64,000 nucleotides of DNA from Pacificibacter marinus (lineage in GTDB: Bacteria > Pseudomonadota > Alphaproteobacteria > Rhodobacterales > Rhodobacteraceae), in NCBI RefSeq assembly GCF_018860665.1, contig NZ_JAHKPK010000018.1, positions 62,001 to 126,000 on the forward strand. Direction: 5' to 3'. Positions 34,993 to 44,282 of the stretch are shown piece after piece. The number at the start of each line of letters is the position of its first letter. Positions within the stretch are counted from its first letter, which is position 1. Both the position numbers and the translations under genes were made by a program. Below the pieces are notes generated by a model that worked only from the letters and a program-made list of their open reading frames with translations, made no database searches and had not been told where the DNA came from.

Positions 34993-36576
34993 TCAACGCG
35001 CCTTAAATAGCCCGCCCAAGATACCGCGTACGATGCGCCGTCCTGTTGTGCCTTTTAGCTCTTTAATCACCAGATTGGCGACAGATTCCCCAATCGAATC
35101 CGACGAGGACGACCGACGAGATGACGACTTTCCATAGGATTTAGATTCGTATCGGCGCGCTTTTTTGAACTCGCGTTCCAATTCTGCGCGGTGCTTTTGC
35201 TCGGATTTTGCCTCTTTGGCAGCCAATTCTGCAGCCTCTTCAGCGGCCTCGGCCTCTTGTGCGGCTTTTGCGGCCTCATCAGCGCGTTTGCTCAAAAGCT
35301 CGAACGCGCTTTCGCGGTCCAAAACGGTCTCGTATTTGCCCGCAATCGGCGAGGTTGCAATCACCCCTGCCCGCTCTAACGCACTCAAAGGTCCAAGTTG
35401 CGACGACGGAGGGCGAATTAGCGTGCGTTCCGCAATTGATGGCACACCTTTGGCCTCTAACATAGATGTCACGGCCTCGCCTGTGCCCACCGATTTGATT
35501 GCCTCTTCAATGTCAAAACGCGGATTGATTCGGTAAGTTTCAGCGGCGCGCTCAAGATTTTTTTGGTCCCGCGCCGTAAACGCCCGCAACGCATGTTGAA
35601 CGCGGTTGCCCAACTGGCCCAAAATATCATCCGGCACATCGGCAGGGTTTTGAGACACAAAATAGACACCAACACCTTTGGACCGGATCAAACGTGCCAC
35701 TTGTTCGACCTTATCGACCAATGCTTTGGGCGCATCATCAAACAGCAAATGTGCCTCATCAAAAAAGAACACCAATTTCGGTTTGTCAGGATTGCCGATT
35801 TCCGGCAGCTCTTCGAACAACTCAGACAAGAGCCACAGCAAAAACGTTGCATAAAGCCCCGGCGAAGACATTAATTTATCCGCCGCCAAAACCGAAATAC
35901 GCCCGCGCCCATCGGCATCAGTGCGAATAATATCCGACAGGTCCAGCGCCGGTTCGCCAAACAATTTGTCACCACCTTGGTTTTCAAGCACCAAGAGACC
36001 GCGTTGGATAGCGCCGATCGAGGATGCGGAAAGATTGCCGTAGCGCAGGGTCAGATCATCGGCGTTTTGACCACACCAGACCAACAAGGCTTGCAGATCT
36101 TTGAGGTCCAGCAAGGGCCAGCCTTGCTCGTCGGAGACCCGAAACGCGATGTTGATCACGCCTTCTTGGGCGTCGGTCAGTTGCAACATCCGCGACAACA
36201 ACAGCGGCCCCATTTCGGCGACAGTTGTACGAATGGGATGGCCTTGCTCGCCAAAGAGATCCCAAAAGGTGACGGGAAAGCTTTCGTATAGGAATGTGGT
36301 GAAATTGATCGTCTCGTTGCGCGCCATAAAAGGCGCATGCAGTTTGCCATCTTTGGACCCAGCCTTGGCAAGCCCCGACAGGTCTCCTTTGACGTCAGAC
36401 AAGAACACAGGCACACCCGCGTTAGAGAACCCTTCAGCCAGAATTTGCAAAGTGACGGTTTTTCCAGTGCCCGTGGCCCCTGCGATCATCCCATGGCGGT
36501 TGCCGTATTTCAGCAAAAGCTGTTGTGGTTCTTTGTAATCGATCCCGCCACCGCCAATAAAAATTCCGTCACTCAT
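34993..36576 (-). CDS. HerA-like ATPase (helicase HerA C-terminal, DUF853)
   Basis: A 527-residue P-loop ATPase of the HerA/FtsK superfamily. Walker A is GATGTGKT (33-40) and Walker B is [12 protein letters not shown]. The body up to about 430 is the conserved core. The C terminus is a long alanine/glutamate/lysine coiled coil followed by arginine- and serine-rich sequence ending near GGLFKAR. The likely role is a DNA-translocating or membrane-associated motor, but it is not proven in this group. The chosen ATG has a GGAGAAAC site; the frame to 36657 is unsupported. NurA is not adjacent, unlike in archaea. Confidence 0.9.
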
Positions 36577-36677
36577 CTTATTGTTTCTCCAACTGATTCC
36601 GCGCCTGTTGCGGATCACTATATCTATCGTTGCGCGTAACAATACAATTTTAACCAAGTGATGTCAGTATCACATAT

Positions 36678-36766
36678 GTTCTGGTCATGTCCTCCTAGGT
36701 CAGAACAGACTTCCTCCCTGTCAGACTGGCCGCGCGTGACGAAAGCCACCGCGGCCTCTTTTTTTG
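36678..36766 (+). ncRNA. Candidate sRNA with two anti-Shine-Dalgarno loops and terminator
   Basis: A first hairpin has stem GTTCTG/CAGAAC (36678-36683 and 36701-36706) with GTCCTCCTAGG in its loop. A second, shorter one is closed by ACAG/CTGT or GAC/GTC and exposes TTCCTCCCT (36711-36719). Then comes a strong terminator, GGCCGCG-C-GTG (36728-36738) against CAC-CGCGGCC (36747-36756), and T-rich TCTTTTTTT. A possible promoter is TTAACC, 17 bases, CATATG just upstream. The loops look like the alphaproteobacterial 'cuckoo' (CcsR) sRNA family. No open frame fits. Confidence 0.7.
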
Positions 36767-36805: not shown

Positions 36806-36834
36806 TTGACGGCATATATCTTCTTGCCTAGATT
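36806..36834 (+). promoter_or_regulatory. Predicted sigma-70-type promoter
   Basis: TTGACG (36806-36811), an exact 17-base spacer and TAGATT (36829-36834), in an AT-rich setting. It would start RNA near 36841, ahead of the hairpin region and ialB. Confidence 0.55.
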
Positions 36835-36841
36835 TTTCATC

Positions 36842-36932
36842 AATGCGTCGGCCATGTCCGACAGGGAGCAAATTGATCTGACAGTTTGACAAGATCACCA
36901 AAGGGGTGCCATGCGAAAAATGGCACCCCTTT
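36842..36932 (+). ncRNA. Structured leader or small RNA upstream of ialB
   Basis: It contains GTCGG/CCGAC (36847-36851 and 36858-36862) and a perfect 13-base inverted repeat, AAAGGGGTGCCAT (36900-36912) and ATGGCACCCCTTT (36920-36932), with a 7-base loop. No T-run follows directly, so it may end an sRNA weakly or form a stable 5' leader of ialB. No open frame with a ribosome site is visible. Confidence 0.4.
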
Positions 36933-37098: not shown

Positions 37099-37746
37099 AT
37101 GAACTTCGCGAACAGCACTAAAACGTTCACCCTGAGCACAGTCATTTCACTTGGATTGTGTTTTTCTGCTGCGGCGCAAGACGCAGAGCCTGCCGCACCA
37201 GAGGCAACAGCCACGGTCCCAGGTCTCAGCACAGGCACGCCCGTTGATGAAACCGGCGGCATCGGTCAACCTTACACGCTTGAGCAGCACGGCGATTGGA
37301 ACATCAATTGCCTCAAAGCGCCAGAAGGCCAATCAGACCCCTGTTCCATGTTCCAATTGCTTCAGGATGACCAAGACAATCCAGTGGCCGAGATGTCTTT
37401 GTTTCACCTTGGCAATGGCGGCATTGAAGGCGCGGCCACAGTCACTGTACCTTTAGACACTTTACTCACAGAGCAACTGACATTGACTGTCGATGGGGCA
37501 AATGGGCGTCGTTACCCATTCTCAGTATGTGCTCCAGCGGGTTGCCAAGCACGCATTGGTCTTGCCACTGCAGATATAGATCTGTTGAAAAAAGGCTCCA
37601 AAGCCACATTGACCATCGTGCCCTCTGCAGCGCCTGACGTGCAAGTGCCTGTGTCCGTGTCTTTGACCGGTTTTACCGCGGCCTATAACCGCGTGACAGA
37701 AATTAACTTGGCAGCGCGTGCCGCGGCAACACCTGCCGCAGAATAA
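37099..37746 (+). CDS. Invasion-associated locus B (IalB) family protein
   Basis: A 215-residue periplasmic or surface protein. It has a signal peptide (about 1-27, ending SAAAQDA), then an acidic, proline/alanine-rich spacer, and an IalB-like domain with WNINCL and two further cysteines (CAPAGCQARIGL), probably disulfide bonded. The family is widespread in alphaproteobacteria and named from Bartonella invasion, but it also occurs in free-living marine species. The ATG at 37099 gives a clean signal peptide; the frame starts earlier at 37054. A terminator follows. Confidence 0.85.
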   Translation: MNFANSTKTFTLSTVISLGLCFSAAAQDAEPAAPEATATVPGLSTGTPVDETGGIGQPYTLEQHGDWNINCLKAPEGQSDPCSMFQLLQDDQDNPVAEMSLFHLGNGGIEGAATVTVPLDTLLTEQLTLTVDGANGRRYPFSVCAPAGCQARIGLATADIDLLKKGSKATLTIVPSAAPDVQVPVSVSLTGFTAAYNRVTEINLAARAAATPAAE

Positions 37747-44005: not shown

Positions 44006-44086
44006 TTTGGAACCCTTGAGTTTACACTGTTAGGTCCCAGAGCTCGAAGGAACGCGCACTGCGAGCCAAAGCCCCCTGCCCGCATT

Positions 44087-44217
44087 CCATTCTCTACCAT
44101 CCGGACTTTAACCGTCGGTTCTGGAATTTCACCAGATCTGCTGACCCAAGCCTTTTCACGTGCGAGGCGCTCGCGGACTATAACCGCCGGTGGGGAATTA
44201 CACCCCGCCCTGAGAAC
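44087..44217 (-). promoter_or_regulatory. FMN riboswitch (RFN element)
   Basis: On the minus strand the conserved blocks appear in order: AGGGCGGGGTG, ATTCCCCACCGGCGGT, GTCAGCAGATCTGGTGAAAT, CCGACGGTTAAAGTCCGG and ATGGTAGAGAAT. It controls ribH, about 80 bases downstream, probably by hiding the start region or terminating when FMN is high. The downstream stretch that pairs GGAATGC/GCGTTCC is a candidate expression platform. Confidence 0.96.
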
Positions 44218-44282
44218 TGATTTGAATTTACGGATGGTCAGGAAAAAGGTCAAGAGCGCCCCTGCGGATAAAACACTCTTGT

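Follow-up and report, generated by a model that had tools for sequence, protein, structure and literature searches.

What does the gap between a herA-like and an ialB-like gene of Pacificibacter marinus encode? We analysed a window of 64,000 nucleotides in which positions 36678 to 36766, within this gap, had initially been annotated as a putative small RNA of the alphaproteobacterial cuckoo/CcsR group. Computation shows a conserved structured RNA gene here: its neighbours hardly change, its seed is constant, its promoter is distinct, and the sites that the seed could pair with show a bias. This herA-ialB RNA is real and conserved, is without an Rfam match at gathering score, and is an anti-Shine-Dalgarno (anti-SD) RNA of the SorX/SorY/alphaR8 kind. 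Probably, the locus encodes a trans-acting anti-SD small RNA (sRNA) of about 88 nt that is a sibling of SorX and SorY and a predicted repressor of transporter substrate-binding proteins. The features of the region are as follows.

36678–36766, plus strand: small RNA gene (match of covariance model R1 at 36673–36762, 94.7 bits, own sequence in the model)
about 36677/8–36765, plus strand: predicted transcript of the small RNA gene
36678–36706, plus strand: hairpin 1, 9 bp (36678–36686 with 36698–36706), loop 36687–36697 ATGTCCTCCTA, from the fold
36707–36727, plus strand: linker UUCCUCCCUGUCAGACU, with the nonamer CCTCCCTGT at 36713–36721 as the proposed target-pairing seed
36728–36765, plus strand: intrinsic terminator, stem GGCCGCG 36728–36734 / CGCGGCC 36750–36756, T7 tail 36759–36765, from the sequence
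36662–36670, plus strand: extended −10 TGT-CAGTAT of the sRNA promoter, hexamer CAGTAT at 36665–36670, from orthologue conservation
36650–36655, plus strand: TTAACC box, conserved among orthologues, 5' of the −10
36639–36667, minus strand: divergent promoter-like element of herA, CTGACA, 17 nt, TATTGT, from a pattern scan
34993–36576, minus strand: herA-like ATPase gene (PF05872 HerA_C, E 1.8e-217)
37099–37746, plus strand: ialB-like gene, ORF start possibly 37054 (PF06776 IalB, E 2.3e-35)
36806–36834: promoter-like site TTGACG-17-TAGATT 5' of ialB, from a pattern scan

The promoter pattern scan returned 2 sites in the scanned stretch against 0.9 expected. The GC-rich terminator ending in a T-run is present, as initially described; it was absent from a generic terminator scan, whose loop limit was 8. 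An inverted repeat with exact 13-nt arms (36900–36932, AAAGGGGTGCCAT ... ATGGCACCCCTTT) lies between the sRNA terminator and ialB and is carried by just five of 466 fetched loci, all of them this very place.

Structure and conservation of the RNA

The 89-nt RNA folds with −29.3 kcal/mol (z = −2.5), which 3 of 200 shuffled sequences equal. The same kind of per-sequence test, which needs no alignment, was applied to the 62 distinct orthologous 5' domains, own included (65 minus two duplicates and one that was too short). Their median z was −3.07, and for 52 of them at most 10 of 200 shuffles (5%) folded equally well. Covariation was measured on a 63-sequence alignment that was fitted to covariance model R1, itself built from 14 orthologues, and so leans towards the model; 64 loci had been hand-chosen among the higher scorers, with lower-scoring orthologues omitted, and 63 passed E ≤ 1e-9. 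In this fitted alignment 86 cells were double-changed, against a shuffled mean of 29 (0 of 500 shuffles reached the count), and 94.6% of cells were paired, against 84.8% in shuffles and 40–48% in slid controls. Double changes fell at 8 of 12 pairs (shuffled, 5.3) and at all five modelled outer pairs of hairpin 1; terminator pairs were retained in 98.4% of cells. Covariation was weak in the unfitted 14-sequence seed alignment, with 9 double-changed cells (reached by 31 of 500 shuffles), 89.2% of cells paired (145 of 500 shuffles) and 79.7% paired in hairpin 1. RNAalifold, run on a 56-sequence MAFFT alignment, recovered the terminator alone (8 pairs), because hairpin 1 is misaligned there. The conserved stems on which the initial annotation had staked its reading are thus found among relatives, both by per-sequence folds and by covariation. 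A variable stem next to a constant string is how a base-pairing regulator should look.

Both CCTCC strings are where the initial annotation had placed them, and its first hairpin loop belongs to a strong hairpin. The supposed second loop, however, is held around TTCCTCCCT by a closure of only 3 bp (GAC/GTC) in our RNA, and among the 65 orthologues four pairs are possible there in 26 and none in four. With so weak and non-conserved a closure, we read the region as a linker. The “two loops” thus come down to a single loop followed by a linker, and of these it is the linker that is conserved. Loop 1 is the less conserved CCTCC site: among 65 orthologues it has CCTC in 34 and CCTCC in 7. Within the linker, UUCCUCCCU (36711–36719) is at least 0.99 unpaired in the ensemble, and the GUCAGA that follows is mostly paired (36720–36725, unpaired 0.19–0.43). 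All 56 aligned orthologues have the string CCUCCCUGU unchanged. The same holds for the nonamer CCTCCCTGT, which is also invariant in all 65 collected orthologues; because these were gathered with a 23-nt core, allowing up to 5 edits, the invariance of the seed is partly built in.

Loop 1 also contains an ATG (ATGTCC), and one might suppose that a small peptide is encoded from it: in nine orthologues the ATG frame is open over the 26 or more codons read. ATGTCC occurs, however, in only 19 of 65 orthologues, which divide 8/6/5 among the three phases relative to the core, and in our own RNA the frame stops after three codons. We give a peptide next to no credence.

Neighbours, distribution and promoter

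Of 148 genomes, 66 (counting our own) matched in a plain DNA search at E ≤ 0.01; these include 18 of 19 relatives of the same genus. The 29 loci other than our own that came from this search (L009–L037) have ialB in 29 cases and herA in 27. Starting from herA gave the same picture. We took 80 named herA contigs, the best 80 HerA protein matches among those listed, and ialB adjoins herA in 44 of them; the core was detected within 5 edits at 36 of these 44 loci and at 0 of the 36 without ialB. Six of the 44 named loci with both neighbours had no detectable core, and two more had it only at 6 edits. The closest named herA relative among the matches listed is from Pacificibacter marinus itself (L046, herA 97%).

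Model R1 matched 319 of 394 Rhodobacteraceae genomes at E ≤ 1e-3 (own included, nearly one genome per genus; 318 of 393 sampled genera without it), a count that may include SorY-type matches near the threshold, since the matches outside the family are partly SorY-like. At E ≤ 1e-3, R1 matched 21 of 240 genomes of the class, our own genome and G074 included, and the matches outside the family have 28–40 bits. Of eight out-of-family loci inspected, four follow a LysR gene of the kind found at SorY, and one further locus is MmgR above its cut-off. Run on 12 SorX/SorY-type loci, R1 gave up to 28.3 bits, about E 1e-3 per genome. The 30 best R1 loci, own included, are flanked by ialB in 30 cases and by herA in 28. 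Most Rhodobacteraceae loci examined therefore share the herA-ialB placement, a synteny to which the initial annotation had looked as a check. Neither the DNA search nor R1 found a match in G005, of the same genus, or in the Rhodobacter sphaeroides-like G070; a HerA search of G070, run without a positive control, was empty.

Of the neighbours ialB varies least; it lies on the strand of the sRNA and is present at 30 of the 30 best loci. It might own the element in cis, as a conserved leader, or as an attenuator with a terminator that adjusts read-through to the gene. We consider this unlikely. In 47 of 65 loci the stretch from the terminator to ialB contains a separate TTGAC[GA] box, and five of the first 25 loci listed have TTGACC there. 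The distance from core to ialB varies by hundreds of bases, and what stays constant is an anti-SD string for which sibling RNAs are known.

The proposed trans-acting sRNA appears to have a promoter of its own kind. By best fuzzy match, the 65 upstream regions share AnnATACA-nnn-TTAACC-n6-TGCCAGTnT, ending just 5' of hairpin 1. Because promoters were located by such matches (at most 12 substitutions) and the motif was read off the same sequences, the following conservation figures are inflated: across the 65 orthologues, A2 of the −10, (TGn)CAGTnT, is kept in 98% and T6 in 97%, and in the TTAACC box the TTAA positions are kept in 95–98% and the two C positions in 88% and 82%. The distance from −10 to core is 35–44 nt in 57 of 65 orthologues, and L068, L085 and L089 fit the motif poorly, with 9–10 substitutions. 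From a conserved −10 at 36665–36670, transcription would start at about 36677/8, the base of hairpin 1. The promoter first proposed, TTAACC followed by CATATG, survives in its upstream half: TTAACC is real and conserved, but the orthologues do not preserve CATATG (36673–36678), which would place the RNA start within the stem; the conserved −10 hexamer is CAGTAT.

On the minus strand, CTGACA-17-TATTGT overlaps this block and its −10 positions are conserved too, as one would expect if the block were merely a divergent herA promoter beside a terminator and no functional RNA were made. Three loci without herA in 3 kb speak against it: L013 (the same place as L179), L023 and L189 have lost the herA −10, yet each retains a TTAACC-like box (TTAA in L013 and L189, TTTACC in L023), a −10-like hexamer, the hairpin and the linker. 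Their loss of the one and retention of the other make it most likely that the TTAACC box is part of the sRNA promoter. Covariation in the hairpin and the constant linker likewise need an RNA explanation, and a herA promoter alone is very improbable. Instead, two promoters, one for herA and one divergent from it for the sRNA, appear to overlap in about 30 bp (36639–36670), with the TTAACC box mid-way. The box may resemble a CtrA half-site.

Candidate targets and mode of action

Transcription, Hfq binding, repression and the identity of targets, as we infer them, would run as follows. Its own promoter and terminator would yield an sRNA of about 88 nt, in which hairpin 1 probably stabilises the 5' end and the U-tail of the terminator probably loads Hfq. 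The linker UUCCUCCCUGU would pair with purine-rich SD regions such as CAGGGAGGA; pairing would block ribosome entry and lower expression. The main targets are predicted to be the periplasmic substrate-binding proteins of ABC and TRAP transporters. That a stand-alone sRNA here pairs with ribosome-binding sites through CCUCC had been suggested initially, and synteny, covariation, the constant anti-SD linker and a bias in target sites all argue for it.

The complement of the seed is (A)CAGGGAGGA. A first 80 target stretches, hand-picked from larger lists of several genomes, served to form the idea of a target bias, and we then counted gene starts of the form CAGGGAGG-N3-10-ATG in our own genome (G000) and in G012 of the same genus. 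In this test, which is post hoc and covers two genomes of one genus, 12 of 21 CAGGGAGG starts belong to substrate-binding proteins by Pfam (5 SBP_bac_1, 4 DctP, 2 Peripla_BP_6 and 1 NMT1). The controls gave 13 of 61 for AGGGAGG not preceded by C, where the 13 were read by eye and then each confirmed by Pfam and the rest were not all scanned singly, and 2 of 22 by Pfam for AAGGAGG. One-sided Fisher tests of the CAGGGAGG set gave uncorrected p values of 0.003 against non-C AGGGAGG and 0.0009 against AAGGAGG. With p 0.17 between the two controls, non-C AGGGAGG is not clearly above AAGGAGG; it is also uneven, with 12 of 36 in G000 and 1 of 25 in G012. In G000 alone, 5 of 9 CAGGGAGG starts belong to substrate-binding proteins (p 0.012 against AAGGAGG). 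Sites counted were all of those in G000 (9 distinct) and G012 (21) for CAGGGAGG, all 44 of G000 and 30 of 74 in G012 for non-C AGGGAGG, and 30 of 36 in G000 for AAGGAGG; 9, 13 and 8 sites, respectively, were dropped because they had no 60-aa frame or none was read.

A reversed-pattern control (180 vs 16 matches, nine genomes) was rejected as unfair, since an enrichment of ribosome-binding sites ahead of ATG is to be expected in any case. With the seed common to SorY as well, the bias is not attributable to the herA-ialB RNA alone, and a preference of substrate-binding-protein genes for GGGAGG could have other causes. The 9-mer ACAGGGAGG is seldom used, the base 5' of CAGGGAGG being mostly T in substrate-binding-protein sites, and the GU of the seed is partly paired in our own RNA. 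As the exact 10-mer ACAGGGAGGA occurs in our own genome only at the RNA gene itself, long seed matches fail to account for targeting. The TRAP binding-protein gene of the window (33794) has an AAGGAA site. We also observed that AGGGAGG-N3-10-ATG is commoner in G000 than its AAGGAGG version (54 vs 36 listed matches, a few overlapping) and that the AGGGAGG starts are rich in substrate-binding-protein genes.

Relation to known small RNAs

Searches of the window at Rfam gathering thresholds gave no match for the sRNA; the sole match was an FMN riboswitch aptamer (44085–44221, minus strand, 117.8 bits, above gathering score). A permissive scan of our RNA returned, in place of the cuckoo/CcsR models that the initial annotation had looked to, SorX (25.1 bits, E 0.0011 for 801 bases), suhB/mmgR (16.2 bits) and SorY (15.6 bits). 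The RNA lies below every Rfam gathering score concerned (SorX RF02784, 46.6; SorY RF02651, 111; alphaR8 RF00519, 41). SorX-model scores in three scanned relatives were 24.1, 31.7 and 39.1 bits, the last at L015. In G070, our positive control, SorX scored 88.8 bits and SorY 115 bits; its SorY position, 1,632,645, compares with a start of 1,632,642 in R. sphaeroides 2.4.1, as given in the accessible text of PMC6238624.

Cuckoo/CcsR RNAs share with the herA-ialB RNA an anti-SD sequence, exposed CCUCC and an origin in Alphaproteobacteria. According to the available portion of PMC3927594, the cuckoo-type SmelA075/SmelA099 carry CCUCCUCCC in each hairpin loop, and RS0680a is a two-loop relative with aSD motifs. 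Their defining CCUCCUCCC, however, has no exact match in the window; the nearest string within our RNA, CTTCCTCCC, lies in the linker rather than in a loop. Where cuckoo/CcsR RNAs have two or more stable motif-exposing hairpins and stand in clusters behind ccaF1, the herA-ialB RNA has one before its terminator, then a weak, non-conserved second closure, and its neighbours encode HerA and IalB. No DUF1127 (ccaF1) gene was seen by eye in the ORF list (50-aa minimum), in agreement with the initial annotation. The Rfam scan at E ≤ 10 gave no cuckoo match either, although Rfam may hold no such model. That this is a bona fide cuckoo/CcsR RNA is extremely improbable; we reject that filing and regard the RNA as one of the SorX/SorY/alphaR8 kind.

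The features by which this kind may informally be told, a hairpin, a CCUCCCUGU linker, an intrinsic terminator and covarying stems, are all present. SorX (RF02784), the best Rfam match, also has a hairpin, the CCUCCCUGU linker and a GGCCG terminator. SorY (RF02651) has the same architecture and seed and, like the herA-ialB RNA, its own promoter and terminator; SorX and SorY share CUCCCUGU. The differences concern locus and promoter. SorX arises by cleavage of the 3' UTR of an ompR-family mRNA, in the account accessible in PMC6238624, whereas the herA-ialB RNA seems to have its own promoter. In G070, an OmpR-type gene precedes SorX, and SorY is flanked by a lysR-type and a purL-like gene (genes named by eye). 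SorY has its lysR-purL locus and a CTTG (RpoH-type) promoter, and the herA-ialB RNA has neither: CTTG is found upstream, by eye, in 29 of the 30 best SorY-model loci, as against TTAACC-TGCCAGTnT here. SorY and SorX are called RpoHI/RpoHII-dependent in the part of PMC5036791 available. Our own genome carries a SorY orthologue at the lysR-purL place (C33:86.2 kb), whose 72.4 bits fall below the cut-off of 111, so that this cut-off appears narrow; downstream of its ompR homologue is a plain terminator with no SorX-like linker. The herA-ialB RNA is thus a separate locus and not a displaced SorY. We place it beside Rhodobacter SorX and SorY as a sibling at its own locus; it also resembles alphaR8 RNAs. 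We infer that SorY is the older and more widespread copy, and that the herA-ialB RNA is a duplicate belonging to Rhodobacteraceae.

Several RNAs of other alphaproteobacterial families (L229–L244) combine a ACGTCTCCCAGACGT hairpin with the same CCTCCCTGT linker, and four of eight inspected lie behind a LysR-type gene. They reach up to 42 of the 46.6 bits required for SorX, which makes the Rfam SorX/SorY cut-offs look narrow. At L236 of G577, a stretch of about 600 bases contains such an RNA three times in tandem.

Marine Rhodobacteraceae depend centrally on taking up sugars, amino acids and organic acids. It is conceivable, though we hold this more loosely than the assignment itself, that a third sibling completes a family-wide SorX/SorY set, with a constant seed that fits the ribosome-binding sites of genes for transporter substrate-binding proteins. 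If so, roseobacters and their relatives would carry a shared “uptake brake” of RNAs under different promoters, the herA-ialB RNA being driven by a putative TTAACC-binding activator. Its promoter being unlike the RpoH-type one of SorY, the siblings would connect different signals to target sets that overlap. A seed that favours substrate-binding-protein starts would also offer a handle on the group-wise turning-down of uptake. The target bias fits what the accessible parts of PMC6238624 and PMC5036791 report, namely an action of SorY on takP mRNA and of SorX on spermidine uptake. Co-precipitation with Hfq is reported there for both RNAs.

Among the papers returned by our literature searches, we recognised no description of a herA-ialB RNA, though the primary SorX/SorY and alphaR8 phylogeny papers may contain one. 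The alphaR8 RNAs (MmgR of Sinorhizobium, SisA-D of Caulobacter), as far as the accessible accounts describe them, likewise have a 5' hairpin, weak in their case, and a terminator, with a single-stranded UUUCCUCCCU between the two. In the available text of PMC12559287, SisA-D are siblings under different promoters with UUUCCUCCCU as the alphaR8 motif, and Caulobacter SisA represses its target by pairing through it. The herA-ialB linker CUUCCUCCCU matches 9 of the 10 bases of UUUCCUCCCU, and 7 of 65 orthologues have the exact 10-mer. The neighbour of alphaR8 RNAs is an FGase gene, whereas here it is herA and ialB. RFM SmelC671 of Rhizobiales, likened by description alone, is also among the closest known systems. 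AbcR1/2 (alphar15) are anti-SD sRNAs as well and act on mRNAs of transporter substrate-binding proteins, a functional analogy only, since the accessible part of PMC7143759 gives them three stem-loops and another locus. With the herA-ialB RNA, the SorX, SorY and alphaR8 RNAs would be joined into one testable structural theme.
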